The position numbers and the translations under genes are program-made. The notes beneath the pieces were generated by a model. It did no database searches and was not told the DNA's origin. It saw only the letters and a program-made list of their open reading frames with translations. From assembly GCF_011044155.1 (NCBI RefSeq), contig NZ_CP049056.1:2108001-2172000 (forward strand): a stretch of DNA of 64,000 nucleotides, written 5' to 3'. This DNA comes from Pikeienuella piscinae (GTDB lineage: Bacteria; Pseudomonadota; Alphaproteobacteria; Rhodobacterales; Rhodobacteraceae). This document shows, piece after piece, positions 3,903 through 20,368 of this stretch. Each line of letters starts with the position of its first letter. The stretch's first letter is position 1.

Positions 3903-5005
3903 GAGGCCCTCGCAATATTCAGAACATGGTCCGCGACCGCCTCCACCCGCCCGCCGGCGCCGAGCTGGTCGAGATAGGGAAGGATCGCGGAAAGCGCGCC
4001 GGTGCGCGGCGCAAAGTCCGCGTCGGCCTTGAGCGGCGTCAGCCAATCGAGCGTCCATGCGGCGCGGGAAAGGCGGCGCACCGCGTCCACCATCTCCGCC
4101 GGGTCGCCGCGCTCCAGCCCGTCGGAGAGCACGATGACGGCGGCGCCGCGGGCGAACCCGGCGTAGCGCGGCACCGCGAGGAACGCCTGAAGCGCGTCGC
4201 CGATCCGCGTGCCGCCGTCGATATCGGCGATCAGGGACGCGGCGCGGGCCAGCGCCTGTTCGCGCCCGGCGGGCGCCAGCGCCGGGGTGATCCGCGTCAG
4301 CCTCGTGCCGAGGGTGAAGATCTCGACGCGATCCGCGGCCTGCGCGAGCGCGTGCGCGAAACGGAGCGCGGCGTCCGTCTCCGCCTTCATCGAGGCGGAA
4401 ACGTCGATCAGCAGAACAATGCGCCGCTGGCGCTCCTTCCGTCGGCGGCGCGGCAGGACCATGATCTCTCCGTCCCGGCGCGCGGCGGCGCGGATGGCGC
4501 GGCGGATGTCCGGCTGATCGCCCTTGCGCGCCCGCGCCCTTCGATAGGACCGACGGCGCGGCAGACGCTCAGGCGCGAGGCGGGCGAAGCGGGCCAGCGC
4601 CTCGTCCTCGGCGCCGACGATCTCGCGGTGCGAAAGACGTTCGACCACGGTCGCCTCCGCGCCCGCCTCCTCTTCGTCCTCCTCGGCCTCGATCTCGATC
4701 TCGCCGCCCGGCTCATGCGCCTCCGTCTCGCCTTCGTCGTCATCCTCGGAGGGCGCTGGCGCCGCAATGGTCTGGCCGAAGAAGATCGCGCGAAAGAGCG
4801 CGTCGAACTCCGCCTCCCGCTCCGGCGGAATGGCGAAGAGGGCGCGGGCGGCGCTTCTCACGTCCTCGATGGAGCGGGGGCCGAGCAGGCCGACGCCCTC
4901 GATGAAATCGATGGTCTGATCGGGCGATACGGCGAAGCGATGCTCGCGCAGCACCGCCGCGAACTGGACGAAGGGCCGGATGGCCGGGGGAAGCGCCCCG
5001 GTCAC
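3899..5005 (-). CDS. CoxE-like VWA domain protein
   Basis: A 368-residue protein with the MIDAS motif DVSAS (D201, S203, S205) of a von Willebrand A domain, in the CoxE-like family. An acidic, Glu-rich stretch lies at about 87-118 and a basic segment at about 148-195. CoxE works with the MoxR ATPase CoxD in finishing the active site of aerobic CO dehydrogenase, and relatives accompany other molybdenum hydroxylases. I chose the GTG at 5005, which overlaps the stop of the ATPase gene as GTGA. The gene sits just after the Mo-hydroxylase subunits, fitting a maturation role. Family confident; exact chemistry inferred. Confidence 0.88.
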   Translation of the reverse strand: MTGALPPAIRPFVQFAAVLREHRFAVSPDQTIDFIEGVGLLGPRSIEDVRSAARALFAIPPEREAEFDALFRAIFFGQTIAAPAPSEDDDEGETEAHEPGGEIEIEAEEDEEEAGAEATVVERLSHREIVGAEDEALARFARLAPERLPRRRSYRRARARKGDQPDIRRAIRAAARRDGEIMVLPRRRRKERQRRIVLLIDVSASMKAETDAALRFAHALAQAADRVEIFTLGTRLTRITPALAPAGREQALARAASLIADIDGGTRIGDALQAFLAVPRYAGFARGAAVIVLSDGLERGDPAEMVDAVRRLSRAAWTLDWLTPLKADADFAPRTGALSAILPYLDQLGAGGRVEAVADHVLNIARAS

Positions 5006-5883
5006 GCCGCTTCGCCCGGCAGAACGGCGTCGAAGCGCTGCGCCATGTAGGTCAGATCGTCCTGATCCTTCAGCGCGACGCCGATGGCGCGGCGAAAGGC
5101 GGCGGGCCAGGCTGCGCCCTGGGAGTTCAGCAGCGTCGCCGCCTCGGCCCATTCGATCGTCTCGGCGACGCCGGGCGGCTTCGCCAGCGGCTCCGCACGC
5201 AAGAGATTGACCGAGGCGACCACCGCATCGGCGGTCGATCGCGCGACCGTGCTGGCGCGGGCCATCACGATCTCCGCCTCCAGCGCGGGATCGGGATAAT
5301 CGATCCAGTGATAGACGCAGCGCCGGCGCAGCGCCTCATGGAGATCCCGCGTGCGGTTCGAGGTCAGCACCACGACCGGCGCGCGGGCGGCGCGGATCGT
5401 GCCCGTCTCCGGGATCGAGATCTGGAAGTCGGAGAGGAACTCCAGCAGGAACGCCTCGAACTCATGGTCCGAGCGGTCGATCTCGTCGATCAACAAGAGG
5501 CAATCGTCGGGCGCGCGCAGCGCCTCCAGCAAGGGCCGCTCCAGAAGGAATTCGTCGGCGTAGAGGTTCAGATGCCCCTCGCCCGCCTGCCGGATCGCGA
5601 GCATCTGGCGCGGGTAGTTCCACTCGTAAAGCGCCGCCGCCGCGTCGATGCCTTCGTAGCACTGAAGCCGCACGATGCGGCGCGAAAGAACGGCGCCGAG
5701 CGCGACGGCCGCCTCGGTCTTGCCGACGCCGGGCGCGCCTTCCAGCAGCAAGGGTTTGCCGAGCGCGAGCGCGAGATACGCCGCCGTCGCCAGCGGCTCG
5801 CTGGCGAGGTATTGCGCGCCGGCGAGCGCCTGGCCGAGCGCATCGGGGCTTCCGACGCCGGATATGACCGGGCGGACCGGCAC
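5002..5883 (-). CDS. MoxR-type AAA+ ATPase (CoxD-like)
   Basis: A 293-residue AAA+ protein of the MoxR group. Walker A is GAPGVGKT (49-56), Walker B is LLLIDEID (D133/E134), and sensor I lies in VVVLTSNRTRDL. In the CO dehydrogenase system CoxD, together with the VWA protein CoxE, helps insert sulfur (and copper) at the molybdenum centre; the VWA partner here overlaps by four bases. The GTG start at 5883 directly abuts the stop of the C-terminal molybdopterin subunit. This order supports a chaperone role for the adjacent hydroxylase. No XdhC/CoxF-type gene is seen within the window. Confidence 0.9.
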   Translation of the reverse strand: MPVRPVISGVGSPDALGQALAGAQYLASEPLATAAYLALALGKPLLLEGAPGVGKTEAAVALGAVLSRRIVRLQCYEGIDAAAALYEWNYPRQMLAIRQAGEGHLNLYADEFLLERPLLEALRAPDDCLLLIDEIDRSDHEFEAFLLEFLSDFQISIPETGTIRAARAPVVVLTSNRTRDLHEALRRRCVYHWIDYPDPALEAEIVMARASTVARSTADAVVASVNLLRAEPLAKPPGVAETIEWAEAATLLNSQGAAWPAAFRRAIGVALKDQDDLTYMAQRFDAVLPGEAA

Positions 5884-6906
5884 CTAGGCCCGTCCCTGCG
5901 GCCGCGCGCCGCCATTGGCGCGGATGCCGCGCAGCACTTTCTCGGGCGTGATCGGCAGCGTGTCGCACTCCACCCCGACCGCGTCGAAGACCGCGTTGGC
6001 CACGGCGGGGAGCAGCGGGTTGGCGCACATCTCCCCGGGCCCCTTGCCGCCATAGGGGCCGTCCTCGGCCGGCCGTTCCAGCACCGCGATATGATGCGGG
6101 GCGACATCGCCCGGCCCCGGCATCAGGTACTGGTTGAAATCGGTCGGGCCATGTTCGCGGTCGGGATAATAGGGCTCCGTCGTCTCGTAGAGCGCGTGGC
6201 TAAGCCCCATCCACGCGCCGCCGATCAACTGCTGCTCCACCAGTTTCGGGTTCAGCGCGCGGCCGAGTTCATAGGCCGAGTTCACCTCCGTCACCGTCAC
6301 CTCGCCGGTCTCGTCGTCGACCTCCAGATCGACGACCAGCGCGGCGTGCGCGAAGCAGGAGACAGGCGTCATTTCCCCGGTCTCCGAATCCACATCGGAA
6401 AGCGGGATCAGGAAAATTCCGCGCCCGGCCAGCGTCCGCCCCTGTTTGAACTGCGCGGCCTGCGATGTCTCCATCACGGTGATCGAGCGGCCCGGCGCGC
6501 CCTTCACATGAATATTGCCGGCCCCGTCCGTCTCCAGATCGGAGGCGTTGACCTCCAGCTCCTCGGCCGCCGCCTCCAGCATCGCCTTTCGCGCCTCGGT
6601 CGCGGCGCGGATCACCGCATTGCCCATCCGGTGCGTCCCACGCGACGCGAAACTGCCCATGTCGTGCGGGCCGGTGTCGCTGTCGGCCGTATCGACATAG
6701 ACATCCGCAATGGGAACGCCGAGCGTCTCCGCCGCGATCTGGCGGGTGACGGATTTCATTCCCTGCCCGAGATCGATAGCGCTCAGCGTCACCATGAACT
6801 TGCCGTCGGGAGTCGCGTGAACGAGCGCTTGAGAGGGGTCGCCGCCGAGATTCATTCCGATCGGATAGTTGATCGAGGCGAAGCCGCGGCCCTTGTGAAC
6901 GGTCAT
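5884..6906 (-). CDS. Mo-hydroxylase molybdopterin-binding subunit, C-terminal half
   Basis: A 340-residue protein matching only the second molybdopterin-binding domain of xanthine-dehydrogenase-family large subunits. It begins where that domain normally begins (GRGFASIN, then the GQG motif in AIDLGQGMKSVTRQ). Near the C-terminus it carries the catalytic-glutamate motif GGKGPGEMCANPLLPA. The ATG at 6906 lies one base after the stop of the gene encoding the other half, so the two are surely co-translated. A normal large subunit of about 750-800 residues is therefore made as two chains. Split large subunits are known for Eubacterium barkeri nicotinate dehydrogenase (NdhL/NdhM). Not CO dehydrogenase. 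Confidence 0.92.
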   Translation of the reverse strand: MTVHKGRGFASINYPIGMNLGGDPSQALVHATPDGKFMVTLSAIDLGQGMKSVTRQIAAETLGVPIADVYVDTADSDTGPHDMGSFASRGTHRMGNAVIRAATEARKAMLEAAAEELEVNASDLETDGAGNIHVKGAPGRSITVMETSQAAQFKQGRTLAGRGIFLIPLSDVDSETGEMTPVSCFAHAALVVDLEVDDETGEVTVTEVNSAYELGRALNPKLVEQQLIGGAWMGLSHALYETTEPYYPDREHGPTDFNQYLMPGPGDVAPHHIAVLERPAEDGPYGGKGPGEMCANPLLPAVANAVFDAVGVECDTLPITPEKVLRGIRANGGARPQGRA

Positions 6907-6907
6907 C

Positions 6908-8842
6908 TCAACGCCTCCTGACGCCGGAGAGGAAGCGCGGCGCGCCGGGGCGGGTTACGCCGCGCTGGAAGGGTTTTTCGGGCTCATACGGCGCCGTCGG
7001 TTGCCCCGCCGGCGGCTGGGTCGACTGCGGCGCAGGCTGACGCGGCTGCGGCTGGGGCGCGGGCGGGGTCTGATAGCTCGGGCGCTGCGGCTGCGGCTGA
7101 TACGCGGGCGGCGCTGCGGCGGCGGGCGGCGCTGCGGCGGGGCGCTGCGCCTGACCCGGCGGCGCGGCCGGCGCCGGTCGGTAGGGTTGCGGCGCGGGCG
7201 CCGCCTGTTGCGGCCTCGGCTGCGAGGAGGACGGCAACACGGTCTGCGCCTCCGAGATCCGATGGCCGATCCGCTCCGCCTCCAGGATCATATCCTCGTC
7301 CTGCGGCGGCGCGGCCTGGATCGCTCGCCCGTGAACCCCGGCCGCGATGCGGCCCTTCGGCCCGCCCGCCGCGCCGGGCGCCGTTGGAAGGTCGCGCTGG
7401 CGTCGCTCGCCGATCCTGCCTTCCTGATCGGTCACCGTCTCCGGTATCTCGGCCCGCCAGCCTTCGCCGCCGCCGGACAGGCTGGACTGGGCGGCGGCCT
7501 CGGCGCTGATCGCGATTCCGGCCTTTTGCGCCGCGACCTGACAGCATTCGATCAGCGCGCAGTTCTTGGCGATGCGCCGGTGCGCCTTCATGTCGCCGTC
7601 GCGATAGGCGTTGAGGATGCGGAACTCGACCGGGTTCATCCCCACCGCGCGGGCGTTCTTGTCCATCTGCCGTTCGATGGCGAAATCGACGGCGGTGACG
7701 CCGAAGCCGCGCATCGCGGTGGCCGGGGTGCGGTTGGTGTAGACGCAGTAGACATTCGCCGCGACGTTCCGGATCGCGTAGGGCCCTGGCATATGCCCGA
7801 CGGCCTTGACGATGGCGTAGCTCGAAAGCCGCGTGTAGGCGCCGGCGTCGAAAAACCCCGTGAACTCCCGCGCCAGAAGCCGCCCGTCGGCGGAAAGCCC
7901 GTCCTTGATGCGCCAGCGCTCGGCCCCGCGCGGGGCCCCCACCTGCATCTCCTCCTCCCGGTCCCAGCAATACTTGACCGGACGCCCGGTCAACATGGCG
8001 CCCAGAACCGCCAGCGGCTCATGCATGCTGTCGACCTTGCCGCCGAAGCCGCCGCCCACCGTGCCGCCGATGAAATGCAGCCGCGAGGACGCCATGTCGA
8101 GCACCTTCGCCGCGGTGCCGAGCGAGAAGAACAGCGCCTGCGTCGAGGTGTGGCAGACATAGCGGTCGTTCGTCTCCGGGGCCGCGATGGCGCCGCAAGT
8201 CTCCGTCGGGGCCTGCTCGATGGGCGACATCTGGTATTCGCCCTCGACGATATGCGTCGCTTCGGCGAAACCCCTGGCGACGTCGCCGAAGCGCATTTTC
8301 TGATGGTCGTAGCGGTCGTAATAATCGAACGTGTTGTTCGGGTACTCCTCGTTCACCACCGGCGCGTTCGGCTTCAGCGCCTCCTCGGGGTCGAGGACGT
8401 GCGGCAGAACCTCCCAGTCCACGCGCACGGCGGCGACCGCGTCACGCGCCTGCCGCTCGGTATCGGCGATGATCGCCAGCACCGGCTCTCCCCTATAGGC
8501 GACCTTCTTCGTCTGGAGCACCATCTCGTCGTCGCGCCCGAAACCGATCAGCGAGAGGAGCGTGTTCATGTTGCGCGGCACATCCTCGCCCCGCACGATC
8601 CGCCTGACGCCGGGCATCCGCTCCGCCGCGCTCGCGTCGATCGACCGGATGCGGGCGTGATGGTGCGGCGAGCGCACGCAGCGCATGTGCAGGAGCCCGT
8701 CGAAGAGGTGATCGTCGAAATAAGCCGAGCGTCCGGTGACATGGCCGAGAATGTCCTGCCGGCGCGTCGGCTTGCCGATCTCCGCGAGATCGTCGTCGCG
8801 CTCGTCCTTGAAATATTCCTTCCGGAATTCGATCGATGACAT
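6908..8842 (-). CDS. Mo-hydroxylase molybdopterin-binding subunit, N-terminal half with Pro/Gln-rich tail
   Basis: A 644-residue protein. Residues about 25-445 cover the aldehyde oxidase/xanthine dehydrogenase a/b hammerhead and the first molybdopterin-binding domain, with GGTVGGGFGGK and the substrate-channel region TPATAMRGFG. The CO dehydrogenase loop AYxCSFR is absent. After the end of that domain (near QVAAQKAGI) come about 190 residues with no counterpart in typical family members, the last 108 (537-644) being Pro/Gln/Ala-rich and ending in a basic tail. I chose the ATG at 8842, which overlaps the 2Fe-2S gene's stop by one base (TGATG); the frame runs open further upstream but that part is a shadow. 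It works with the C-terminal half, the 2Fe-2S and the FAD subunits. Confidence 0.9.
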   Translation of the reverse strand: MSSIEFRKEYFKDERDDDLAEIGKPTRRQDILGHVTGRSAYFDDHLFDGLLHMRCVRSPHHHARIRSIDASAAERMPGVRRIVRGEDVPRNMNTLLSLIGFGRDDEMVLQTKKVAYRGEPVLAIIADTERQARDAVAAVRVDWEVLPHVLDPEEALKPNAPVVNEEYPNNTFDYYDRYDHQKMRFGDVARGFAEATHIVEGEYQMSPIEQAPTETCGAIAAPETNDRYVCHTSTQALFFSLGTAAKVLDMASSRLHFIGGTVGGGFGGKVDSMHEPLAVLGAMLTGRPVKYCWDREEEMQVGAPRGAERWRIKDGLSADGRLLAREFTGFFDAGAYTRLSSYAIVKAVGHMPGPYAIRNVAANVYCVYTNRTPATAMRGFGVTAVDFAIERQMDKNARAVGMNPVEFRILNAYRDGDMKAHRRIAKNCALIECCQVAAQKAGIAISAEAAAQSSLSGGGEGWRAEIPETVTDQEGRIGERRQRDLPTAPGAAGGPKGRIAAGVHGRAIQAAPPQDEDMILEAERIGHRISEAQTVLPSSSQPRPQQAAPAPQPYRPAPAAPPGQAQRPAAAPPAAAAPPAYQPQPQRPSYQTPPAPQPQPRQPAPQSTQPPAGQPTAPYEPEKPFQRGVTRPGAPRFLSGVRRR

Positions 8843-9327
8843 CAGGCGGCCCTCCCGCGCATGCGTTCCGCCGCGGCGAGAATGGCGTCGATGATCGGCT
8901 CGTAGCCGGTGCAGCGGCAGATATTGCCGGCGATCCCCTCGGCGACCTCTTCGCGTGTCGGGGTGGGGTTCTCCGCCAGCAGCGCTTTCGCCGCCATCAG
9001 CATGCCCGGCGTGCAATAGCCGCACTGGGCGGCGAAACCCTCCATGAAGGCGTCCTGCAGGGGGTGAAGGTCCGGCCCCTCCGCGAGGCTGGCGGCCGTC
9101 TCGACGGAGCGGCCCGCGACCGCCTCCGCCAGCGTCAGGCAGCTGAGTTGCGGGCGCCCGTCGATGAGCACCGTGCAGGTCCCGCAGGCCCCCTGTCCGC
9201 AGCCGTATTTCGGCGTGAGATCGCCCAGCCCGCGCCGCAGCGCGTCCAGGAGATTCTCGCCGCCCTCGACGAACAGATCGGCGGTCGAGCCGTTCAATGT
9301 GAAACTGATTGGCGTTCTGGCCATCAC
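8842..9327 (-). CDS. Mo-hydroxylase 2Fe-2S subunit (CoxS/XdhA-type small subunit)
   Basis: A 161-residue ferredoxin-like small subunit of the molybdenum hydroxylase family. The plant-type cluster is bound by CGQGACGTC plus a later Cys (LSCLTL). The second, helical 2Fe-2S domain has AQCGYCTPGM and NICRCTGYEPI. It passes electrons from the molybdopterin subunit to FAD. The start is one of two adjacent ATG codons; the first (9327) overlaps the end of the FAD-subunit gene (9324). Length and motifs are typical. Confidence 0.95.
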   Translation of the reverse strand: MMARTPISFTLNGSTADLFVEGGENLLDALRRGLGDLTPKYGCGQGACGTCTVLIDGRPQLSCLTLAEAVAGRSVETAASLAEGPDLHPLQDAFMEGFAAQCGYCTPGMLMAAKALLAENPTPTREEVAEGIAGNICRCTGYEPIIDAILAAAERMRGRAA

Positions 9328-10124
9328 CGCCTCCCGTCTTCGAGCAACAATCTCCGCAGATGCACCGGCGCGACCTCGCGCCGGTACCAGGCGGAGGCGA
9401 GCGGATCGTCAGGCGGATCCAGCCCCTCCGTCGCCGCGGCCAGCGCCCGCGCGATCCCGCTCTCGTCCAGCGCCGCGCCCTCCAGCGCCCGCTCGACGGC
9501 GCGCGCCCGCGCCGGCGCCGGCCCCATCGCGCCGAACGCGACGCGCGCGCCCGCGATCCGCCCCGGCGCCCCCGGCAGCCACGCGGCGATCGCCATGACC
9601 GAGACACCCTTCGGTTTCACCCGGCTGACTTTCCGGAACCGGAACTCCCCGTCGCGCGGCCGGGCGATGGAGACGGAGGCGACAAGCCCCGCGCCATCGC
9701 GCCGCGCCAGCAATTCCTCCAGCGGCGTCTCGCGCCCGTCCGCCATCCGCGCCTTGCCGTCGAGCGCCAGCAGCGCGGTCGCGAAATCGCCATAGGGATG
9801 CGCCGCGAAAAGATTTCCGCCGACCGTCGCCATCTGTCGCACCGCCGGCCCGCCGATTGCGCGGGCGACCGGCTCCAGAAACGCCAGATCGCGGGACGCC
9901 ATCACATCGGCCATGGTCGCGCCGGCGCCGATCTCGATCCGGTCGCCCGCGGCCGCGATGCGCCGCAGCCCCTGGTCGCGGACCCGGATGATCCGCCGGA
10001 AACTCTGATCGCCGTAATTCGCGGCGCGCATCACCAGCGTCCCGCCGCCGAGATAGCGCCCGTCGCCGCCGATGGCGCGGGCGGCCTCGGCGAGCGTATC
10101 GAAGGTTTCGACAATGATGCTCAT
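9324..10124 (-). CDS. Mo-hydroxylase FAD-binding subunit (CoxM-type medium subunit)
   Basis: A 266-residue FAD_binding_5/CO_deh_flav_C protein. The FAD motifs LGGGTLVM and TVGGNLFAAHPYGDFATALLAL are present and typical of medium subunits. It accepts electrons from the 2Fe-2S subunit. I chose the ATG at 10124 (MSIIVETFDT) because it overlaps the upstream stop as ATGA and puts the FAD motif at the usual distance; in-frame sequence further upstream is out of character. It is slightly shorter than CoxM (about 288 residues) but complete in motifs. Confidence 0.93.
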   Translation of the reverse strand: MSIIVETFDTLAEAARAIGGDGRYLGGGTLVMRAANYGDQSFRRIIRVRDQGLRRIAAAGDRIEIGAGATMADVMASRDLAFLEPVARAIGGPAVRQMATVGGNLFAAHPYGDFATALLALDGKARMADGRETPLEELLARRDGAGLVASVSIARPRDGEFRFRKVSRVKPKGVSVMAIAAWLPGAPGRIAGARVAFGAMGPAPARARAVERALEGAALDESGIARALAAATEGLDPPDDPLASAWYRREVAPVHLRRLLLEDGRR

Positions 10125-10564
10125 GCGGCGGCTCCCAGATGCTCGCGTATGGCTTCGAAACCGGCGCTGTAAATCCCGTCGCCGACCTGCGCCGCCAGTT
10201 CTTCCTCGCGTCCCGCGGGGGTGTCGAAGCGGCTTTCCCATTCCCAGAACGTGGCGTTCCCGTCGGTGACCGGGGTCAGACGGCAATGGGCGACATAGTT
10301 GAAAAGCGGAATCGGCGTATCCAGAAGGCAATAGGAGAACGCCATCTCGAGGTCGGAAAGCGTCAGCAACTGCTCACGCAGGTTCGAGCCGTCCGCCAGC
10401 CTGAAATTTCTGACGCAGCCGATCCTGTCGACGGGCTCTCCGCGCTCGACATGGCTTTCCGCGACAGCGGGGTGCCAGCGGTCATGCCCGTTGAAATCGC
10501 GGATCGCGTCCCAGACCGTCTCGACCGGCGCATCGATCACCGTGCTGCGGACGACCCTGACCAT
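10121..10564 (-). CDS. SRPBCC family protein (MxaD/polyketide-cyclase-like), copy 2
   Basis: A 147-residue START/Bet v 1-like helix-grip protein. The pattern IDAPVETVWDAIRDFNGHDRWHP is the usual SRPBCC start. It is clearly a paralogue of the next gene upstream (shared RDFN, RWHP/KWHP, VGCxRNF, REQLLxLSD and RLTPxTDG blocks). SRPBCC proteins bind hydrophobic ligands in a deep cavity. CoxG, of the same superfamily, attaches CO dehydrogenase to the membrane, but this sequence is nearer to the MxaD-like group. Its position in front of the hydroxylase subunits suggests substrate binding or membrane recruitment; that is inference. Confidence 0.85.
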   Translation of the reverse strand: MVRVVRSTVIDAPVETVWDAIRDFNGHDRWHPAVAESHVERGEPVDRIGCVRNFRLADGSNLREQLLTLSDLEMAFSYCLLDTPIPLFNYVAHCRLTPVTDGNATFWEWESRFDTPAGREEELAAQVGDGIYSAGFEAIREHLGAAA

Positions 10565-10565
10565 T

Positions 10566-11003
10566 TCAGCCTCCGAAATGCCGTTTCAGCGCGTCAAAGC
10601 CGCCCTGAAAGACATTCCCGCCGATTCCGGCGACCAGATCCGACTCGTCGTTCGGGGCGCATGCGAATTCCGCCGACCATTCGGCGAAACAGCGGTCGCC
10701 GTCGGTGATCGGCGTCAGGCGCAGCGTCGCGACGTAATCCGAAAGCGGCATCGGCCCGTCCAGCATCGAGTAGGTGCAGAAGTGATCGTAATCTGAAAGG
10801 CCGAGAAGCTGCTCACGGATATTGTCGCCGTTCTGAAGATTGAAATTGCGGATGCAACCGACCTTGTCGCCGGGCAGGCCGTCCTCGATCCGGCTGTCGC
10901 GGATGCGCGGATGCCATTTCGGCAGGGCGTTGAAGTCGCGGATGCGCTTCCAGACCTCCCCGGCCCCGGCGCCGATCACGCTTGAGACATAGACCCGCGC
11001 CAT
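10566..11003 (-). CDS. SRPBCC family protein (MxaD/polyketide-cyclase-like), copy 1
   Basis: A 145-residue START/Bet v 1-like protein (VIGAGAGEVWKRIRDFNALP, then IGCIRNFNLQNGDNIREQLLGLSD; VGCIRNF as written in the frame). Its ATG at 11003 directly follows the stop of the giant flotillin gene, and its stop is one base before the next SRPBCC gene. Tandem duplication is clear from block-by-block similarity with that neighbour, though the two have diverged throughout. Ligand unknown. Being coupled to a membrane scaffold gene on one side and a molybdenum hydroxylase on the other, it may act as an adaptor between them; I cannot show this. Confidence 0.85.
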   Translation of the reverse strand: MARVYVSSVIGAGAGEVWKRIRDFNALPKWHPRIRDSRIEDGLPGDKVGCIRNFNLQNGDNIREQLLGLSDYDHFCTYSMLDGPMPLSDYVATLRLTPITDGDRCFAEWSAEFACAPNDESDLVAGIGGNVFQGGFDALKRHFGG

Positions 11004-14000
11004 CTATTTCGCCCCTTTCCCGCCATCTCCGCCGGCGCCGGAATCCTCGCCGCCCGCCTTGTCCTTCGCCGCCTTGAGCCGCAACGCCTCGTTCCCGGCG
11101 CGGCCCATGTCGGAGGCGTCGCGCAGGATGCTCGACTTCGCTATATTGGCGCCGTCGACGCCGATATCCTTCAGCAGCGAGTCGACGAAGGGCGCCTGCA
11201 CCCGGTAGCGAAGCGCGGAGTTCATCACATCGTCGGTGGGCGAGCTTCCTCCGCCCCCGCCGCCGCCGGAGCCGCCGCCGCCATTCGACCAGTCGAGCCC
11301 CTGCGTGCCGGAGCCGCCGAGCTGCATGATCTTGATGTCGTTGATCTTCTCCAGCGGCTTGACCGAGGCGGCGACGATGCCCTCGACATGCTCCAGCATC
11401 TTCCGTTTGAAGAGCGACTGGCGCGCGGCGTCGGTGAGGACGTTCTCCGCTTCGTTGATGAGCTTTTGCGCCTCGGCCTCGACGGCGGCGCGGATCTGCT
11501 CCGCCTCGGCGGCGATGCGCTTCTCCTGCGCCGCCTTCTCCGCCATCACCACGTCGATCGAGCGGCGACGGGAGGCTTCCTCGGTCTCCTTCGCGGTGGT
11601 GACCTTCTCGGCCGCCTCCGCCGCGCGGGCGCGGGCGATGTCGGCCTTTTCCGCCGCCGCGCTTTCCTCGAGCGATTTCACGTAGAGCGCGATGGCCTTC
11701 TCCATCGACGCCTCTTCAGTCGCGCGCTCGCGCTCGATCTCCAGCTTGCGCCGCTCGGTCTGGTGGCCGATGCGGGCGTCGTCCAGCCCGCGTTCGGAGG
11801 CGATGCGGGCGCGCTCCACCTCCTCCTGGCTGGCGATCTCGGCCTCGCGGAGCGCCTGCGTCCGGGCGATCTCCAGTCGCTCCAGCGCCTTCTTCCTCTC
11901 GATCTTCTTCGCGTCCAGCTCCTGTTCGGCGAGGATGCGCTCCGCGTCGACCGTCTTCTCCTTGGCGACGCGCGCCGCCTCGATTGCCTCGTCGGCGGCG
12001 ATCTGCGCGGCGTCGAGCGCCTTGTTGCGCGCGATCTCCAGGTTCCGCACCCTCTCGTCGCGGGCGATCTTCTCGGCCGTCGTTTCCTGCTCCTTCTCGA
12101 TGCGCAGCTGCTCGATCAGGCGGCGCGAAGAAATCTCTGCGCTTTCCACGCCCTCCGCCTTCTCGATCTCGCGCGAGCGAATCTCGCCTTCCTTCTGAAT
12201 CTCGGCGGCGCGGGTCCGGAGCTGTTCGCCGATCCGGGCGGCGTTGATCTCCTCCTCGGCTGCGATGGCCGCGTGATCGACCGCCTTGTTGCGCGCAACC
12301 TCGCGCTCGCGAAGGTCCTGCTCATAGGCGATGCGCTCGGCGGCGACCGCCTTCTCCTTGGCGAAGCGGGCGGCCTCCACCGCCTCCTCCTTCGCGATCT
12401 CCGCCGCCTCGATGGCGCGGGCGCGGGCGACGTCGCGCTCGCGGGTCTTCTCCTCGCTCTCGATCCGCCGGACGGAAAGCTTCGCCTCGCGGGCGATGCG
12501 CGCCGCCTCGACCGCTTCGCTCGCCGCGACCTCGGCCTCGTCCACCGCCTGATTGCGGGCGATCTCCAGCTCGCGTGTCGCCTTCTCGAAGGCGATCCGT
12601 TCGGCGGCGACGGCCTTCTCCTTGGCGATCTTCGCCGCGTCGATGGCTTCGGACCGGGCGATCTCCGCGGCTTCGATGGCGCGACCGCGCGCGACCTCGC
12701 GCTCCTCCGTCGCCTCCTGGCTGGCGATGCGCTCGAAGGCCAGTTCCTTGTCCTGCGCGATGCGGGCTTTCTCCACCGCCTCGCGGGCGGCGATCTCGGC
12801 CTCGTCCACCGCCCGGTTGCGGGCGATCTCCAGCGCGCGCACGCGCTCCTCCTGCGCGATACGGGTCGAATCCGTAGCCTCGCGCGCCGCGATCTGCGCC
12901 TCGTCCAGCACCCGCTGGCGCTCGATCTCCAGCCCCCGCGTCGCCTGCTCGGAGGCGATGCGCTCCGCCGCCAGCGCCTTTTCGCGGGCGATGCGCGCCG
13001 CTTCGGTCGCCTGTTCGGAGGCGATCTCCGCCTCCTCCAGCACCTTCTGGCGCTCGATCTCCAACTCCCGCGTCGCGCGGTCGGAGGTGATGCGCTCCGC
13101 GCTCACCGTCCGCTCCTGCGCGATGCGCAGCTTGTCGGCGGCTTCGCGGGCGGCGATCTCCGCCTCCTCGACCGCCAGGTTGCGGGCGATCTCCTTCTCG
13201 CGCGTCGACTGGTCGAGGGCGATCCGCGCCTCGGTGATCTCGCGCTCCTGCGAAATGCGGGCCTTCTCCACCACCTCGCGGGCGGAGATGTCGGCCTCGT
13301 CGACAATGCGCTGGCGCTCGATCTCCTGGCTGCGATTTTCCTGATCCTTGGCGATGCGCGCTTCGGTGACGGCGCGCTCCTGCGCGATGCGCGCCTTCTC
13401 GATGGCTTCCGCGGCCGCGATTTCCGCGGCGTCGGTTTCCTGCCTGGTCTTGATCCGCTCTTCCGAGACGCTCTTCTCCTGCCGGATGCGCGCTTTCTCG
13501 ATCGCCTCGCGGGTGGCGATTTCGGCCTCGTCGATCACCCGCTGGCGCTCGATCTCCCAGCTTCTGACCTCGCGCTCGGATTTGATCCGGGCTTCGGAGA
13601 TCTGGCGATCATTGGCGATCCGCGCCGTTTCGATCGCCTCGCGGCTCAGGAGGCTCGCCTCCTCGCCTTCGCGCTCGCGTTCGGCGCGCTCGCGCACCAG
13701 TTCGGCGCGTTGCTGGGCGCGGCGAAACTCGATCTCGCGCTCCTGCTCCAGCCTTGCATGCTCGCTGTCGCGTTCGATCTCCAGCGACTGGCGCTCGGCC
13801 TCAAGGTTGCGCGCCCGGATACGGATCATCGTCTCCTGCTCGATGTCGTTCCTGAGCTTCCGGCGCTCCTCCACAGCCTGGATGACGGAGGTCAGACCCT
13901 CGGCGTCGAACCGGTTCGAAGGGTTGAAATACTCGATATCGGTCTGATCGATATCGGTGATCGCGACGCTTTCCAGCTCAAGCCCGTTCTTCTCCAGCCC

Positions 14001-14504
14001 CATCTGCGCGGCGTTCAAGACCCGGGCGACATAGTCGTTCCGGTTCTCGTGCAGTTCCTCCAAGGTCATTTCGGAGGCGATGGTGCGCAGACCCGAGATG
14101 AACTTGCCCGACAGGAGCCCGTGCAGCCGCTCCGCCTCGAGCGAGCGGCGGCCCAGCGTCGATGCGGCGAGGCTGACCGCCTCTTTCGAGTTCTTCACCC
14201 GGACGTAGAACTCCGCATCGACGTCGATCCGCATCCGGTCCTTGGTGATCAGCGCCTCCTCCTTCTCGCGCGTCACCGCAAGCTGGAGCGTGTTCATGTT
14301 GACCGGCGTGATGTCGTGGATGATCGGCCAGACGAAGGCGCCGCCGTCGATCACCACCTTCTCGCCGAGGAAACCCGTCCTTACGAACGCGATCTCCTTT
14401 GTCGAACGGCGATAGAGCCATCGCATCACCCAATAGGCGATGAAGATGACGATGACTGCGAAAATCAGCCAGAGGATCAGTTGTCCGATCAGCTCTCCGG
14501 TCAT
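11004..14504 (-). CDS. Giant flotillin/SPFH-domain protein with 58 tandem hendecad repeats
   Basis: A 1,166-residue flotillin-like (YqiK-type) membrane scaffold, about twice the usual size. Residues 6-30 form one N-terminal membrane helix, and about 36-215 an SPFH/PHB domain (LEKNGLELESVAITDID is characteristic). Residues 295-932 are exactly 58 consecutive 11-residue repeats, each starting with E/R/K/Q-I/V and often ending in A, without one inserted or deleted residue; most group into 44-residue super-units (EIERxRVxDEA, EIAxREAxEKA, RIAQExxVxxE, RIAxExATREL). The C-terminal part has the flotillin tail, a Gly-rich loop (about 1063-1087) and a charged Gly/Lys end. Hendecads predict a nearly straight right-handed coiled coil, roughly 95 nm if fully helical. 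The start has a good GAGGGAGG site. It lies 20 bases after the TIM-barrel gene and abuts the SRPBCC gene. Confidence 0.92.
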   Translation of the reverse strand: MTGELIGQLILWLIFAVIVIFIAYWVMRWLYRRSTKEIAFVRTGFLGEKVVIDGGAFVWPIIHDITPVNMNTLQLAVTREKEEALITKDRMRIDVDAEFYVRVKNSKEAVSLAASTLGRRSLEAERLHGLLSGKFISGLRTIASEMTLEELHENRNDYVARVLNAAQMGLEKNGLELESVAITDIDQTDIEYFNPSNRFDAEGLTSVIQAVEERRKLRNDIEQETMIRIRARNLEAERQSLEIERDSEHARLEQEREIEFRRAQQRAELVRERAEREREGEEASLLSREAIETARIANDRQISEARIKSEREVRSWEIERQRVIDEAEIATREAIEKARIRQEKSVSEERIKTRQETDAAEIAAAEAIEKARIAQERAVTEARIAKDQENRSQEIERQRIVDEADISAREVVEKARISQEREITEARIALDQSTREKEIARNLAVEEAEIAAREAADKLRIAQERTVSAERITSDRATRELEIERQKVLEEAEIASEQATEAARIAREKALAAERIASEQATRGLEIERQRVLDEAQIAAREATDSTRIAQEERVRALEIARNRAVDEAEIAAREAVEKARIAQDKELAFERIASQEATEEREVARGRAIEAAEIARSEAIDAAKIAKEKAVAAERIAFEKATRELEIARNQAVDEAEVAASEAVEAARIAREAKLSVRRIESEEKTRERDVARARAIEAAEIAKEEAVEAARFAKEKAVAAERIAYEQDLREREVARNKAVDHAAIAAEEEINAARIGEQLRTRAAEIQKEGEIRSREIEKAEGVESAEISSRRLIEQLRIEKEQETTAEKIARDERVRNLEIARNKALDAAQIAADEAIEAARVAKEKTVDAERILAEQELDAKKIERKKALERLEIARTQALREAEIASQEEVERARIASERGLDDARIGHQTERRKLEIERERATEEASMEKAIALYVKSLEESAAAEKADIARARAAEAAEKVTTAKETEEASRRRSIDVVMAEKAAQEKRIAAEAEQIRAAVEAEAQKLINEAENVLTDAARQSLFKRKMLEHVEGIVAASVKPLEKINDIKIMQLGGSGTQGLDWSNGGGGSGGGGGGGSSPTDDVMNSALRYRVQAPFVDSLLKDIGVDGANIAKSSILRDASDMGRAGNEALRLKAAKDKAGGEDSGAGGDGGKGAK
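11709..13622 (-). repeat. Coding repeat array: 58 x 33-bp units (11-residue hendecads), 132-bp super-period
   Basis: This stretch encodes flotillin residues 295-932. I parsed it by hand into 58 units of 11 residues in perfect register, from RIANDRQISEA to EIERERATEEA. Four-unit blocks (132 bp) recur, with at least one three-unit block (units 22-24). DNA identity between units is moderate, so this is an old, selected protein repeat rather than a fresh tandem duplication. Confidence 0.93.
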
Positions 14505-14523
14505 GGTGGCCTCCCTCTCCGCG

Positions 14524-15348
14524 TCAGGGGCGGATGCTCTTGAATTTCTTGGTCTGTTCGGTCAGCGCGATCTCCGTCGGCAGCCGCTCCATGGAGGAGG
14601 CGCCGTAGAAACCGTGGCAATGCTTCGTGTTCTTCAGAACGAATTCTGCGTCGCCGGGCATGGCGACCGGCCCGCCGTGGACCAGCACGAGCGCATCGGG
14701 GTTCACGGCCAGCGCCGCCGCAGCCCACTTGTCGGTCAGCGCGGGCGCGTCCTCCAGCGCGACGCCGGTCTCCGCGCCGATGGAGCCGCCCGCCGTCAGC
14801 CCCAGATGGGCCACGATGATGTCGGCTCCCGCGCCGGCCATCGCCGCCGCGTCCGCTTCGGAAAAGACATAGGGCGTCGTCAACAGGTCACGCTCGCGCG
14901 CGAGGCGGATCATCTCCACCTCCTGCGCATAGGACATGCCTGTCTCCTCCAGATTGGCGCGGAACGTCCCGTCGATCAGCCCCACGGTGGGAAAGTTCTG
15001 CACCCCGGCGAAGCCCATCGCCTTCAGCTGGTCCAGGAAGTGCGGCATCAAGCGGAAGGGGTCGGTGGCGCAGACCCCGGCCAGCACCGGCGTATGCTTC
15101 ACCACCGGCAGCACCTCCGCCGCCATCTCCGTCACGATGGCGTTGGCGTCGCCATAGGGCATCAGCCCGGCGAGGCTGCCGCGCCCGGCCATCCGGTAGC
15201 GGCCGGAATTGTAGATGACGATGAGATCGATCCCGCCGGCCTCCTCGCATTTTGCGGAAAGCCCGGTGCCTGCCCCGCCGCCGATGATCGGCTCGCCCGT
15301 CGCCGCCATCGCGCGGAATTTCGTCATCAGCTCGCTTCTGCTCTGCAT
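14524..15348 (-). CDS. Phosphoenolpyruvate hydrolase-like TIM-barrel protein (Tm-1 C-terminal-type domain)
   Basis: A 274-residue TIM-barrel protein of the PEP hydrolase-like family (COG5564-like; blocks [60 protein letters not shown]). The same domain forms the C-terminal half of the tomato Tm-1 virus-resistance protein, whose N-terminal half matches the domain fused to the ATPase encoded just upstream. The ATG at 15348 lies two bases after that gene's stop. Bacterial function is not established; related enzymes act on C-C or enol-phosphate bonds. Family confident, reaction unknown. Confidence 0.88.
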
Positions 15349-15349
15349 A

Positions 15350-17509
15350 TTAGGCTCCCGCGGCGCGGCGCGCGCCGCCGCCGTGCAATTCGCGGAACGT
15401 CGCCACGGCAAGCGCGGCGAATTCCGGGTCGTTGATGTTGTGAGGCGTGCGGATCAGACGGCGCTGCATCGTCTGGCTCACGGTTCCCTCCAGCGTAGAG
15501 AATAGCGCCTCATCGGCCTGCGGATCTCGAAAGGGCTGGCCGTCGGCGTCCAGCGCGGAGACTCCGCCCTCGGGCAGAAAGAACCGCACCGGCCCGGTCA
15601 TCCGGTTCAACCGCGCACCGATGAACCGGGCGATCCGCTCGTTCTCCTCCACCGAGGTCCGCATCAGCGTGATCTGCGGGTTATGCTCATAGAGAAGCCG
15701 CCCGCGATACCGCTCCGGCACGGTCTCCGGCGCGTTGAAATTCACCATGTCGAGCGCGCCGCAGGCCCCGATATAGGGAAGGCCCGACCGGATCGCGGCG
15801 CCGAAACGATCCTCCGTCGCCGGAAAGACGCCGCCCGCCACCATGTCGCAGACCTCGGTCGTGGTCAGGTCGATCACTCCGGCCAGCATGCCCGAATCGA
15901 GCAGGTTCTCCATCGCTCTTCCGCCGGTCCCGGTGGCGTGGAAGACGAGGCAGTCGTACTCCCCCTCCAGTTCGGCCGCGACCTGCCGGACGGCGGTGGT
16001 GGTGACGCCGAACATGGTGAGGCCGATCGCCGGCTTTGACGGCGCGGCCGGCGCCGGCGCCCGCCGCGCCTTCGCCATGCCCGCAAGCGCATGCGCGCCG
16101 TTCGCCAGCACCTGCCGGGTGATCGAGTTCAACCCCTGCACGTCGGCGACGGAGTGCAGCATGAAAATGTCGGACGGCCCGACATATTGCTCGGTGTTGC
16201 CGCTGGCGACGGTGGAGACGATCACCTTCGGCACCCCGACCGGCAGGGCGCGAAAAGCCGGCGCGACCAGCGCCGTGCCGCCGGAGCCGCCCGCGCCGAT
16301 CACGCCGGCGACATTGTCCTGCGCCTGCATCCAGCGTTCGAAGGCGACGGTCATTCCGGCGACCGCCGATCCCCGATCGCCGGTGAAGACGCCGCTCGCG
16401 CCGCGCGGATGGAACCCGGCGACGGCGTGCGGCGGCACATCGGCGCCCGAGGGTTTGCCGCTGGTGGAGAGGTCGACCATCCGCACCCTCACCCCCTCGC
16501 CCTTGAGGATGTCGCGGATGAACCGCAGCTCGGCCGACTTGGTGTCCAGCGTTCCCGCCACCAGGACGTCGCCGGGCGCCCCCGACGCGCGCGCGCGCAT
16601 CGGCCGGGCCTTTCGAGCCGACGAAGCCTCGGCCGCCGTCACCGTGCGCGCCGATCCTTCAATCACCCGCACCGGAACCGACTGCGACCAGCGCGTCGGC
16701 GTTTTCGGATTGGAGAGGTAGATCTTCGTCGGCCCCGCCGCGCGCTCTGTCGGCGCATGCGCGACGGCGGTGTCCGGCGTTTCGTCATGCGCGTGGCGCC
16801 CGACGCCCAGCAAAGCCTGCTGCAGGTCGCGATCGGCCGCGAGGCGCGCCGCATCCATCACCCGGTCGATCTTGCCATTGACCATGATCGCGACGTTTTC
16901 GGAGACCGCGCAGGCGACGCCGATATTCTGCTCGATGACAAGAACGTCGATATCGCCCTCGCGCCCGAGCCGGAGCAACATCTCTTCGACCTGGCTGACG
17001 ATCACCGGGGCGAGCCCCTCGGTCGGCTCGTCCATCACCAGAAGCCGCGGATTCAGGAGGAGCGCGCGGCCGATGGCGAGCATCTGCTGCTCGCCGCCCG
17101 AAAGCTGCGCGCCGAGATTGTCGCGCCGCTCCGCGAGACGTGGAAATGTCGAATAGATGCGCTCGACCGACCAGGCGCCGCCCTTCACCGCCACCAGCTT
17201 CAGATGCTCGTCGACGCTGAGCGAACGCCAGAGCCGGCGTCCCTGCGGCACATAGCCGACGCCAAGCCGGGCGATGTCGGAGGGCGTCATGCCGGTCAGC
17301 GCCTGGCCATGAAGCGCGACCGCGCCCGAGGCGGCCCGCTCCAGCCCCATGATCGTCTTGCAGAGCGTGGTCTTGCCCATGCCGTTCCGCCCGACGACGG
17401 ATAGAACGCCTCGATCGAGCGTCAGGTTCACGCCCTGCAGGGCGTGCGACTGGCCGTAGAACACGTTCAGGTCGCGTATCGCGAGAGAGGGGACGCCGCG
17501 TTCAGCCAT
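15350..17509 (-). CDS. LivF-type ABC ATPase fused to a Tm-1-like/UPF0261 domain
   Basis: A 719-residue fusion. Residues 1-240 are a complete LivF ATPase: Walker A GRNGMGKT (40-47), signature LSGGE (136-140), Walker B LLVMDEP with E161, and the switch region VIEQN. A poorly conserved linker (about 240-312) joins it to a Tm-1-like ATP-binding domain (UPF0261, about 313-719; [43 protein letters not shown]). The start at 17509 overlaps the LivG stop by eight bases. One polypeptide would thus tie import energy to an enzyme-like domain whose plant homologue binds ATP and a viral replicase. The separate TIM-barrel gene follows. The function of the second domain in bacteria is unknown. Confidence 0.9.
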
Positions 17510-18308
17510 CCTCGCCCCCGCCGAGATAGAGCGCCTGCACCTCGGGATCGTTCTCGATCTCGGCCGGTTTCCCTTCTTTGAAGATGCGCCCATTATGCAT
17601 CATCGTCACAGATTCCGCGACGCGGAGCGCGACATCCATGTCGTGCTCGATGATGATGAAGCCCATATGGCCCGGAAGGCCGGTCAGGATCTCCACCAGA
17701 TCGCGCCGCTCGGTGGGCGAAAGCCCCGCCGCCGGCTCGTCGAAGAGAATGAAACGCGGCGCGCCCGAAAGCGCCATCGCGATCTCGAGCTGGCGCTGCT
17801 GGCCGTAAGAGAGATTGGCGACGATAGTGTCCTTGGCGTCCTCCATATGGACGACGCGCACCAGGTTCTCCGCGCTCGCCATCAGCGCGTCGTCCCGGCG
17901 CGGGCGGCGAAAGGAGAACCGCCCGCGCGAGACTCCGCAACTGGCGAGATAGACATTGTCGAGCACGCTCAACCCGGAGAAGAGCAGCGAGATCTGGTAG
18001 GTGCGGCGCAGCCCCCGCCTGATCCGCTCATGCGGCGGAAACGCGGTGATGTCCTCGCCGAAGAAACGGATAGAACCGGTGGTCGGCGGAAAATCCCCGG
18101 TCACGCAGTTGAAGAGCGTGGTCTTGCCGGCGCCGTTCGAGCCGAGGACCGCCCGGCGCTCGCCCGGGCGCACGGTCATGTCGATATCGGCGAGCGCAGA
18201 GAGCGCCCCGAACATCTTGCCGACGCCGCGAAGCTCCAGCGCGTTCGCGGTGCCGGTCGAACTCAACCGCTCCGATATCGTCGCCGTCATGTCCACCGGG
18301 GCGTTCAA
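17502..18308 (-). CDS. livG: Branched-chain-type ABC transporter ATP-binding protein LivG
   Basis: A 268-residue ATPase with Walker A GSNGAGKT, signature LSYGQQ, Walker B FILFDEPAAGLSP and the LivG-type H-loop (IIIEHDMD). A TTG at 18308 overlaps the LivM stop as TTGA and gives the coordinates used; an ATG six codons later (18290) is an alternative start. It pairs with the LivF domain of the fusion protein encoded next. Together with LivH and LivM this completes a HAAT-type importer. The substrate need not be an amino acid. Confidence 0.93.
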   Translation of the reverse strand: MNAPVDMTATISERLSSTGTANALELRGVGKMFGALSALADIDMTVRPGERRAVLGSNGAGKTTLFNCVTGDFPPTTGSIRFFGEDITAFPPHERIRRGLRRTYQISLLFSGLSVLDNVYLASCGVSRGRFSFRRPRRDDALMASAENLVRVVHMEDAKDTIVANLSYGQQRQLEIAMALSGAPRFILFDEPAAGLSPTERRDLVEILTGLPGHMGFIIIEHDMDVALRVAESVTMMHNGRIFKEGKPAEIENDPEVQALYLGGGEDG

Positions 18309-19357
18309 AATTTCGCCTCGTCACGGTCCAGAAGCGGGTCGCGCCCCCGGCTCGCCTTCCATTTCTCCCAAAGCCCGAGGATGCCGTCCGGCGACCAGAA
18401 GACGATGGCGAGAAAGCCGATTCCGATCAGAAGCTGGAAGCGTTCCCCGGCGAGGCCGAGGCCGACCAGCGCATCGGTCGCGAAGGTCTTGAGGATGACA
18501 TAGATCAGCGCGCCGATGAACGGCCCGATCGGATGGCGGACGCCGCCGATCACCGCAATGATCAGGATATCGATCACCGGCCCGACGCCGACCGTGCCCG
18601 GGGAGACCTGCGCCGACTGCCAGGTCAGGAGAATCCCGCCGATCCCGGCGATCAGCGCGGCGAAAGCGTAGGCGGCGACGCGGTGTGCGTTGACGTTGTA
18701 GCCGAGCGCCGCCATCCGGCGCGGATTGTCCCGTACGCCCTGCAGCGCCAGCCCGAACGGCGCGCGGGAAAGGTAGAGCACGGCGAAATAGGCGAGGGCG
18801 GCCCAGAACAGCGTCAGGTAATAGAACGCCGTCGGCCCGCGCCAGTCGACGCCGAAAAGCGGCGGCGGCAGGATGCCGTTCAGGCCGTTGAAACCGTTGA
18901 AAACGACATAATTCTGCCTGACGAAATAGAAGAAGGCCGAGGCGATCGCGAGGGTGATCATGATCGTGTAGATCCCCTCCGTCCTGACCGCGAGCCAACC
19001 GGTCAGCGTTCCGAAGACCATCGCGACGATCAGCGCCAGCGGGATCGCCAGATACCAGGGCCAGCCCTGCGAAATGTCGGTGATGGCGCTGGTTCCGAAG
19101 ATCGCGACCATGTAGCCGGCCAGCCCCGCCACCGTCATCTGCACGAGGCTGACCATGCCGCCATAGCCGGCGAGAAACATCAGGCTGAGCGCGATCATGC
19201 CGAGAATGAAGGTCCAGCCGAAAATCTGGTAGAGCGCATAGTCCCCCGCGATCGCCGGCATGACGATCAGGATCGCGCCGACAAGCCAGTAGGCGAGCGG
19301 AATCCGGCTCTCGCGCACCGCCGCGATCTCCGCCGGTCTTTCCTCCGTCAGCGCCAT
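18305..19357 (-). CDS. livM: Branched-chain-type ABC transporter permease LivM
   Basis: A 350-residue inner-membrane permease with about ten predicted hydrophobic segments. It carries the LivM marks LAGYGGMVSLVQMTVAGLAGY and the ATPase-contact region LQGVRDNPRRMAALGYNV. Its ATG (19357) directly abuts the LivH stop and its end overlaps the LivG start. It forms the membrane channel with LivH. Confidence 0.94.
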   Translation of the reverse strand: MALTEERPAEIAAVRESRIPLAYWLVGAILIVMPAIAGDYALYQIFGWTFILGMIALSLMFLAGYGGMVSLVQMTVAGLAGYMVAIFGTSAITDISQGWPWYLAIPLALIVAMVFGTLTGWLAVRTEGIYTIMITLAIASAFFYFVRQNYVVFNGFNGLNGILPPPLFGVDWRGPTAFYYLTLFWAALAYFAVLYLSRAPFGLALQGVRDNPRRMAALGYNVNAHRVAAYAFAALIAGIGGILLTWQSAQVSPGTVGVGPVIDILIIAVIGGVRHPIGPFIGALIYVILKTFATDALVGLGLAGERFQLLIGIGFLAIVFWSPDGILGLWEKWKASRGRDPLLDRDEAKF

Positions 19358-20368
19358 TCAGGCCCTCCCCATAAGGCCCTGCGGCCGGAAGGCCAGCACG
19401 ACGACCATGATCAGGAAGGTGAGAACGACCGCATAGGTCGGGAAATAGACCGAGCCGAACTGCTCCGCGAGGCCGATCAGCAGCGCGCCGAGCGCGGCGC
19501 CGGGAATCGAACCCATCCCGCCGACGATCACCACGACGAGCGAGGCGAGAAGAAAGCGGATGTCCTCGCCCGGCGCGACCGACTGGAAGGTGCCGCCGAC
19601 GACGCCGGCCATGCCGGCGAGCCCGGCGCCGAAAGCGAAGACGCCGACGAAAACGAGCTGGATGCGCGCGCCCGTCGCCGAGAGCATGTCGCGGTCATCG
19701 ACCCCGGCGCGGATCAGCATGCCCACCCGCGTCCGGTTGAGAAGCAGCCACATCGCGACCCCGACCGCCACGGAAGCCAGGAAAATCACGATCCGCACCA
19801 CCGGATATTTCATGTAGACGATGTCGCCCGATCTTTTCTGCGCGGTGGAGAGGAATGTCTCCACCGGCCCGCTCAGCCAGCCCGGCGGCGAGATGTTGTA
19901 ATAGTCGCCCCCCCAGATCCAGAGCATCAGGTCCGCCAGAACGATGGAAATACCGATGGTCACCAACGTCTGGCGCAGATCCTCCCCCTCCATCCGACGG
20001 AAGACGAAGATCTGCAAAAGCACGCCGAGCGCGGCGACGACGACGAAGGCGGCCGGAAATGCGAGCAGCCAGTAGCCGGTCCAGTCCGCCGCCAGAAACC
20101 CGACATAGCCGCCGAGAAGATAGAGCGAGCCATGCGCGAGATTGACGTTGCGCATCAACCCGAAGATCAGCGTGAAGCCCGAGGCGACAAGGAAATACAG
20201 CCCGCCCAGCGTCACCCCGTTGAAGAGCGCGTTGAGGAAGATCTTCTTGCGCCCGATGGCGTCCGTCAGCCAGTCCGGCCAGAGTGCGAAGATCATCCAC
20301 AGAAGGATCGCGACGAGAATCGCGATGATCCCGCTCCAGACCGGGTGACGGCTGTAAAACCCTCTCAC
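19358..20368 (-). CDS. livH: Branched-chain-type ABC transporter permease LivH
   Basis: A 336-residue permease with the LivH signature region FNGVTLGGLYFLVASGFTLIFGLMRNVNLAHGS-type block (positions about 49-80) and the EAA-like loop VGMLIRAGVDDRDMLSA. The GTG start at 20368 is preceded by GGAGG at a suitable distance. It is longer than a typical LivH (about 290-310) because of an extra N-terminal hydrophobic segment (about 10-35). It is the first gene of the LivHMGF set after the AraC gene. Confidence 0.93.
   Translation of the reverse strand: MRGFYSRHPVWSGIIAILVAILLWMIFALWPDWLTDAIGRKKIFLNALFNGVTLGGLYFLVASGFTLIFGLMRNVNLAHGSLYLLGGYVGFLAADWTGYWLLAFPAAFVVVAALGVLLQIFVFRRMEGEDLRQTLVTIGISIVLADLMLWIWGGDYYNISPPGWLSGPVETFLSTAQKRSGDIVYMKYPVVRIVIFLASVAVGVAMWLLLNRTRVGMLIRAGVDDRDMLSATGARIQLVFVGVFAFGAGLAGMAGVVGGTFQSVAPGEDIRFLLASLVVVIVGGMGSIPGAALGALLIGLAEQFGSVYFPTYAVVLTFLIMVVVLAFRPQGLMGRA

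Follow-up and report, generated by a model that had tools for sequence, protein, structure and literature searches.

A 64,000-nucleotide stretch of the Pikeienuella piscinae genome (contig NZ_CP049056.1, positions 2,108,001 to 2,172,000; hereafter the window) carries on its minus strand, at 11004-14504, a gene whose 1166-residue product is a flotillin, as judged by SPFH and Flot domains that both score above their cut-offs. The two domains are separated by an array of 58 eleven-residue (hendecad) repeats. On balance, and with modest confidence, we read the protein as a very large flotillin that belongs with the SPFH cages and in which the array would form an enlarged stave of the cage wall; the continuity of the helix, its lateral packing and the cage itself we infer from sequence and from solved relatives.

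A flotillin gene with 58 hendecad repeats

Residues 295-932 (window 13622-11709, minus strand) divided into exactly 58 units of 11 with zero slips, as the first-pass annotation had described for this protein. Position 2 of the unit was Ile in 52 units, Val in five and Phe in one, and position 11 was Ala in 31 of the 58, so the pattern of Ile/Val at the second place (57/58) and frequent Ala at the last was also borne out. In the best phase, Ile/Val occupancy at period 11 was 0.983, and none of 500 shuffles exceeded 0.31; at periods 7, 15 and 18 it was not above the shuffles. The power peaks of hydrophobic, Ala and acidic residues fell at 3.665-3.67 residues per turn, with a power of only 0.4-0.7 at 3.5. 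A heptad was rejected given the peak at 3.667 and a period 7 no better than shuffles, in agreement with the earlier expectation of a hendecad with about 3.67 residues per turn. Self-identity of the array reached 0.41 at a lag of 44 residues and 0.42 at 88, compared with 0.27-0.30 at lags 11, 22 and 33; therefore the 44-residue super-unit, also described beforehand, is real within this array. It is largely a charge wave over four units, mainly E,E,R,R at position 1, where the charge correlation was −0.80 at two units and +0.68 at four. Repeats of 33, 66 and 132 bp are present in the array DNA. At 0.15 nm per residue the 638 residues would span ~95 nm if fully helical, the figure that had been given for a rod, and the whole helix ~123 nm.

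The ratio of non-synonymous to synonymous substitutions (dN/dS) of the gene lies well below 1, and its remainder follows a flotillin layout on the minus strand. A transmembrane helix at residues 3-34 (14403-14498), seen in the sequence and as a helix in an AlphaFold2 (AF2) model, is directly followed by RWLYRRSTK, and because these positive residues come after the helix, the positive-inside rule makes the protein beyond it probably cytoplasmic. Then come the SPFH/Band_7 domain at residues 41-195 (13920-14384; Pfam PF01145, 62.5 bits against a curated cut-off of 23.6, with Foldseek matches to the SPFH domains of flotillin, stomatin and prohibitin), a pre-array helix at residues 201-294 that is without gaps across homologues (13623-13904), the array itself (11709-13622) and a post-array helical segment at residues 933-1019 with the conserved motif xMEKAIALYxKSLEESAA (11448-11708). 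The Flot domain covers residues 988-1116 (11157-11543; PF15975, 118.3 bits against a cut-off of 27, E 2.9e-34), and by analogy would be the counterpart of the flotillin cage cap. Assignment to the FloT equivalog NF058507 of NCBIfam was rejected, with 54.2 bits against a cut-off of 700. Opposite the gene runs an antisense open frame of 1051 residues (11388-14543, plus strand), which probably arises from the repeats and the high G+C.

Array length and register among relatives

Scanning named genomes yielded 80 loci, and whole-genome searches supplied further ones; among the relatives are Roseibium album, Labrenzia sp. THAF82 and Ruegeria sp. 2205SS24-7. Seventy-six proteins of the named set, the window protein counted in, could be anchored at both ends. 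Their distance from the N-terminus to Flot differed from that of the window protein by a multiple of 11 in 51 cases and by a multiple of 11 plus 3 in the other 25, while the length of the C-terminal tail was spread over every residue modulo 11. With the further genomes included, 98 distinct long proteins showed a residual of 0 in 55 and of 3 in 43, and nothing else, and the 36 different SPFH-to-Flot distances among them fell 19 to the first class and 17 to the second. In the window protein, ~786 residues lie between the SPFH end and the C-domain anchor. The residual of 3 corresponds to a single 3-residue skip inside the array. Of 44 carriers, 40 have it 176 residues ahead of the C-domain anchor regardless of array length, and it was fitted at 187 in the remaining four, which belong to a short clade; given this position, an offset in the C-terminal flank was rejected. 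The residual needs at least five changes on the tree described below. The description of the array as uninterrupted thus extends to 55 of the 98 relatives, the other 43 having the one skip. Length differences other than multiples of 11, which the first-pass annotation had named as a refutation of its reading, were looked for, and the conserved skip is the only one of that kind.

The window protein and ten 58-unit homologues from several genera aligned gap-free as far as the Gly-rich linker (residues 1063-1088, 11241-11318), the first gaps appearing at about residue 1065. Over all 98 relatives the arrays nominally hold 17-64 units. A maximum-likelihood tree was built by a quick search from residues 1-284; it has 93 tips, and many of its forks are weakly supported. 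At least 43 changes in the number of units are required on it, compared with 69-76 in the ten printed random shufflings of the labels. Sister pairs differ by whole units, mostly 1, 4, 7 or 8 and once 19, and some clades are constant: six Roseibium/Labrenzia loci have 58 units, a Silicimonas/Boseongicola group has 41 and five genomes of one genus have 40. Array length is heritable but labile, and it is not quantised by 44; the relatives' sizes step by 11, so of the two multiples proposed for homologues only the smaller stood, apart from the skip.

Not one proline occurs among the 44,462 residues pooled from the arrays of 93 proteins, no small insertions or deletions were found over 638 codons at dS >1, and array dN/dS (0.02-0.22) is similar to that of the SPFH domain. 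The register is nearly inviolate, and because of these three observations and the whole-unit size differences we consider it probably under selection. Of the earlier suggestion that rod length and register are both selected, the part on register is therefore upheld, while the part on length fits poorly with the range of sizes and the number of changes on the tree.

Surface pattern and the cage-wall reading

A profile was pooled from 3,609 units chosen for an aliphatic residue at position 2, in which that position was Ile in 90%, position 8 was aliphatic in 74%, positions 3, 7 and 11 were rich in Ala and positions 1, 5 and 9 were charged. On an 11/3 wheel these residues form three stripes ~120 degrees apart, the Ile and Val seams being separated by 131 degrees with charges between them. 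The first-harmonic hydrophobic moment was 0.05, compared with 0.73 for an ideal hendecad with one a/d/e/h core and ~0.58 for an ideal amphipathic helix, and the largest hydrophobic harmonic was the third (0.33). Charge complementarity from i to i+4 within the helix was strong (−0.76 for positions 1-5, −0.82 for 6-10). A near-zero moment with three stripes is compatible with a helix that would have neighbours on more than one side, short of proving a barrel.

The closest PDB sequences were flotillin-1 chains. Full-length AF2 models were built with 11 and with 57 sequences, and a Foldseek search with the second ranked flotillin on top, followed by prohibitin, stomatin, HflK/C and vault. The more confident region of this model is residues ~71-190 (block mean pLDDT 62-86, mostly >70), so we relied only on the SPFH part of the match. 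The human flotillin cage has 44 subunits and a single-layer right-handed helical barrel wall of 186 residues without heptads, and the wall helices listed for SPFH proteins measure 44-189 residues (PMC11260169). Subunit number rises with helix length in these assemblies, with a fit of 0.1782 x length + 10.22 (PMC12624060); extrapolated to ~820 residues, far outside the fitted range, this gives ~156 subunits, which we offer as a testable number. We favour the cage-wall reading because of the SPFH and Flot domains with their PDB and Foldseek matches, the published wall-helix structure and length-subunit trend (PMC11260169, PMC12624060), the constant-plus-11n lengths with no proline, SPFH-like dN/dS and no indels at high dS, the near-zero moment with three stripes, and the conservation of the operon presented below.

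Several observations weigh against it. Both AF2 models are of low confidence (mean pLDDT 57 and 61), and they break the helix at low-confidence sites that mostly differ between the runs, with residues 589-599 low in both. Salt bridges linking positions 4 and 6 laterally were looked for and not found, the two positions being same-sign at zero offset, and so we claim no interface. The wall segment of human FLOT1 is not 11-periodic: lacking an 11/3 peak, it was rejected as a hendecad precedent, and it follows that a flotillin wall can be built without hendecads. We also know of no precedent for a cage several times taller than that of human flotillin.

Under the cage-wall reading, the N-terminal helix would anchor the protein and the SPFH domain would line the membrane, as is known for relatives, and residues ~201-1019, predicted to be helical, would make one continuous stave. 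Many copies side by side would form a helical barrel with a wall of one layer, which the Flot domain would close, as in the flotillin structures 9bq2 and 9l3g, with every wall helix touching two neighbours along its full length. An insertion that is not a multiple of 11 would rotate the rest of the stave out of contact and be purged, and whole units could be gained or lost freely; this may be the cause of the length rule. With a wall helix about four times that of human flotillin, the result would be a cytoplasmic basket up to ~0.1 micrometre tall.

Alternative readings

The first-pass annotation had proposed a discrete right-handed coiled-coil rod, in which a few parallel helices would make a ~95 nm stalk that holds the C-terminal domain off the membrane. 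Hendecads are known to yield straight or right-handed coiled coils, and the strict period of 3.667 and the absence of proline would suit such a stalk. A rod with one buried core is nevertheless a poor fit to the surface pattern, since a moment of 0.05 rather than 0.73 argues against few strands, and the Ile and Val seams lie 131 degrees apart with charges in between. The solved SPFH relatives, moreover, are cages with barrel walls and not stalks (PMC12624060). We regard the rod as unlikely, though it is the strongest of the alternatives.

Neutral recombination between repeats might instead lengthen the array, the 11-residue rule being then that of a 33-bp mutational unit and the length having no function. 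The size changes on the tree, at least 43 in number, and the whole-unit steps, often of 1, 4, 7 or 8, are what such a process would leave, and the 33/66/132-bp repeats in the DNA could produce whole-unit steps unaided. It accounts for the steps but not for 638 codons free of small indels at dS >1, and it leaves unexplained the missing proline, the SPFH-like dN/dS and the clades of constant size (58 units in six Roseibium/Labrenzia loci, 40 in five genomes). As a full account we find it rather improbable; it can, however, hold for length while the register is selected.

A single stable alpha-helix of the ER/K type, serving as a spacer with no self-association, would agree with the strong i to i+4 charge pairing. 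It would leave the near-invariant Ile at position 2, the 74% aliphatic position 8 and the Ala stripe exposed, and a lone helix has no need of a strict 11-residue register, which makes this reading very improbable. Last, the array could be an amphipathic 11/3 helix that rests on the surface of a membrane or of a lipid body. Perilipins, synuclein and apolipoproteins share this periodicity, and such a helix would go with a membrane-anchored protein, but the reading was rejected as barely credible, because the moment of 0.05 against an ideal ~0.58 argues against it, the contiguous apolar face of lipid-binding helices was not found and charged positions separate the aliphatic stripes.

A conserved operon around the long flotillin

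The neighbouring genes, all on the minus strand, recur at the loci of the 98 long flotillins. A TIM-barrel protein of the PEP_hydrolase family (PF09370; 14524-15411) is present in 97 of them, and UPF0261 (Tm-1-like), here fused to a LivF-type ABC ATPase (15350-17593), in 94; the LivG ATPase and the LivM and LivH permeases of the importer lie at 17502-20368. Two SRPBCC (Polyketide_cyc2) proteins (10566-11003 and 10121-10564) are each found at 93 loci. The molybdenum (Mo) hydroxylase, with CutM, CutS and a large subunit in two open reading frames (5884-10331), is found at 66-82 loci, a count limited by flank length, and a MoxR-like AAA ATPase and a CoxE-like VWA protein lie at 3899-5883. At 19 of 20 ordinary-length loci (L158-L177, namely phylum-survey flotillins plus the window genome's own ~500-residue Band_7 gene) these neighbours are all absent, and at the remaining locus there is only an ABC-ATPase match. 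Two short flotillins, L138 (543 residues) and L181 (open frame of 535), occupy the same operon position; therefore the array seems to have gained or lost length inside a single lineage of the operon. A strict requirement for PEP_hydrolase was rejected, since locus L184 lacks the gene and keeps the importer, the long flotillin and the SRPBCC genes; homologues of PEP_hydrolase also occur elsewhere without a flotillin. No publication on this gene cluster was found in the literature searched.

The conserved operon suggests a link between one flotillin and a specific import and oxidation pathway: the association is genetic, and a physical enclosure of the partners would be hypothetical. The putative basket could surround or scaffold the Liv-type importer together with the SRPBCC, PEP_hydrolase and often Mo-hydroxylase partners. 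We tentatively extend this to a membrane-anchored compartment, a doubtful proposal in which an SPFH basket of ~0.1 micrometre around the importer, on its cytoplasmic side, would pass what is imported to the co-encoded oxidising enzymes, with possibly well over 44 subunits and a height evolving in steps of 11 residues (1.65 nm).

Some further features of the operon were recorded. The cluster of the 747-residue LivF-UPF0261 fusion (15350-17593, minus strand) has members in 65 loci, and in L184 (7644-9701) the region after LivF resembles UPF0261 but has diverged strongly. Plant UPF0261 is instead joined to the TIM-barrel domain (PMC5028733). The first of the two frames of the Mo-hydroxylase large subunit (5884-9607, minus strand) ends with a Pro/Gln-rich tail, and the separate second-half frame seems to recur at other loci. 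Elsewhere in the window, a predicted membrane protein at 26132-27541 (plus strand) has a run of AFAVAFAV/GAVAVA repeats, and at 559-2127 (minus strand) an SMP-30/gluconolactonase domain is fused to an isochorismatase domain.

Comparison with known SPFH assemblies

SPFH cages are a young structural topic. While the described wall helices stay below 190 residues, the giant-flotillin lineage, with roughly 100 relatives, reaches ~820 in clean 11-residue steps. These relatives are a natural length series on which it could be tested how wall length sets cage height and copy number, and whether SPFH cages act as rulers or as compartments.

The nearest known system is the human flotillin-1/2 cage (9bq2, 9l3g; PMC11260169), the top PDB match in both sequence and fold, which has an SPFH domain, a long helical wall and a Flot-type C-terminal region in common with the window protein. 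Its wall of 186 residues is not 11-periodic and it has no transmembrane helix, whereas the window protein has an N-terminal transmembrane segment and a predicted helix of ~820 residues, strictly hendecad over 638. Bacterial flotillins of YqiK/FloT size have the identical domain order and are found in the same bacterial families, but their coil between the SPFH and C-terminal domains is of irregular length and shows no 11/3 peak in the sampled genomes. At ~540-606 residues, with a coil of ~180-228, they agree with the first-pass comparison to typical flotillins of about 500 residues and a coil of about 200. In flotillin-associated rhodopsin clusters (PMC10308929) a bacterial flotillin gene of 1,977 bp is likewise locked in synteny with a dedicated membrane partner; there the partner is a rhodopsin, the flotillin has ~658 residues and the operon is another one. 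Finally, HflK/C, prohibitin, stomatin and vault also build SPFH-type ring or cage walls, and some enclose membrane partners, as HflK/C does with FtsH and stomatin with aquaporin-1 (PMC12407830); their wall helices are much shorter than that of the window protein, and HflK/C extends into the periplasm.
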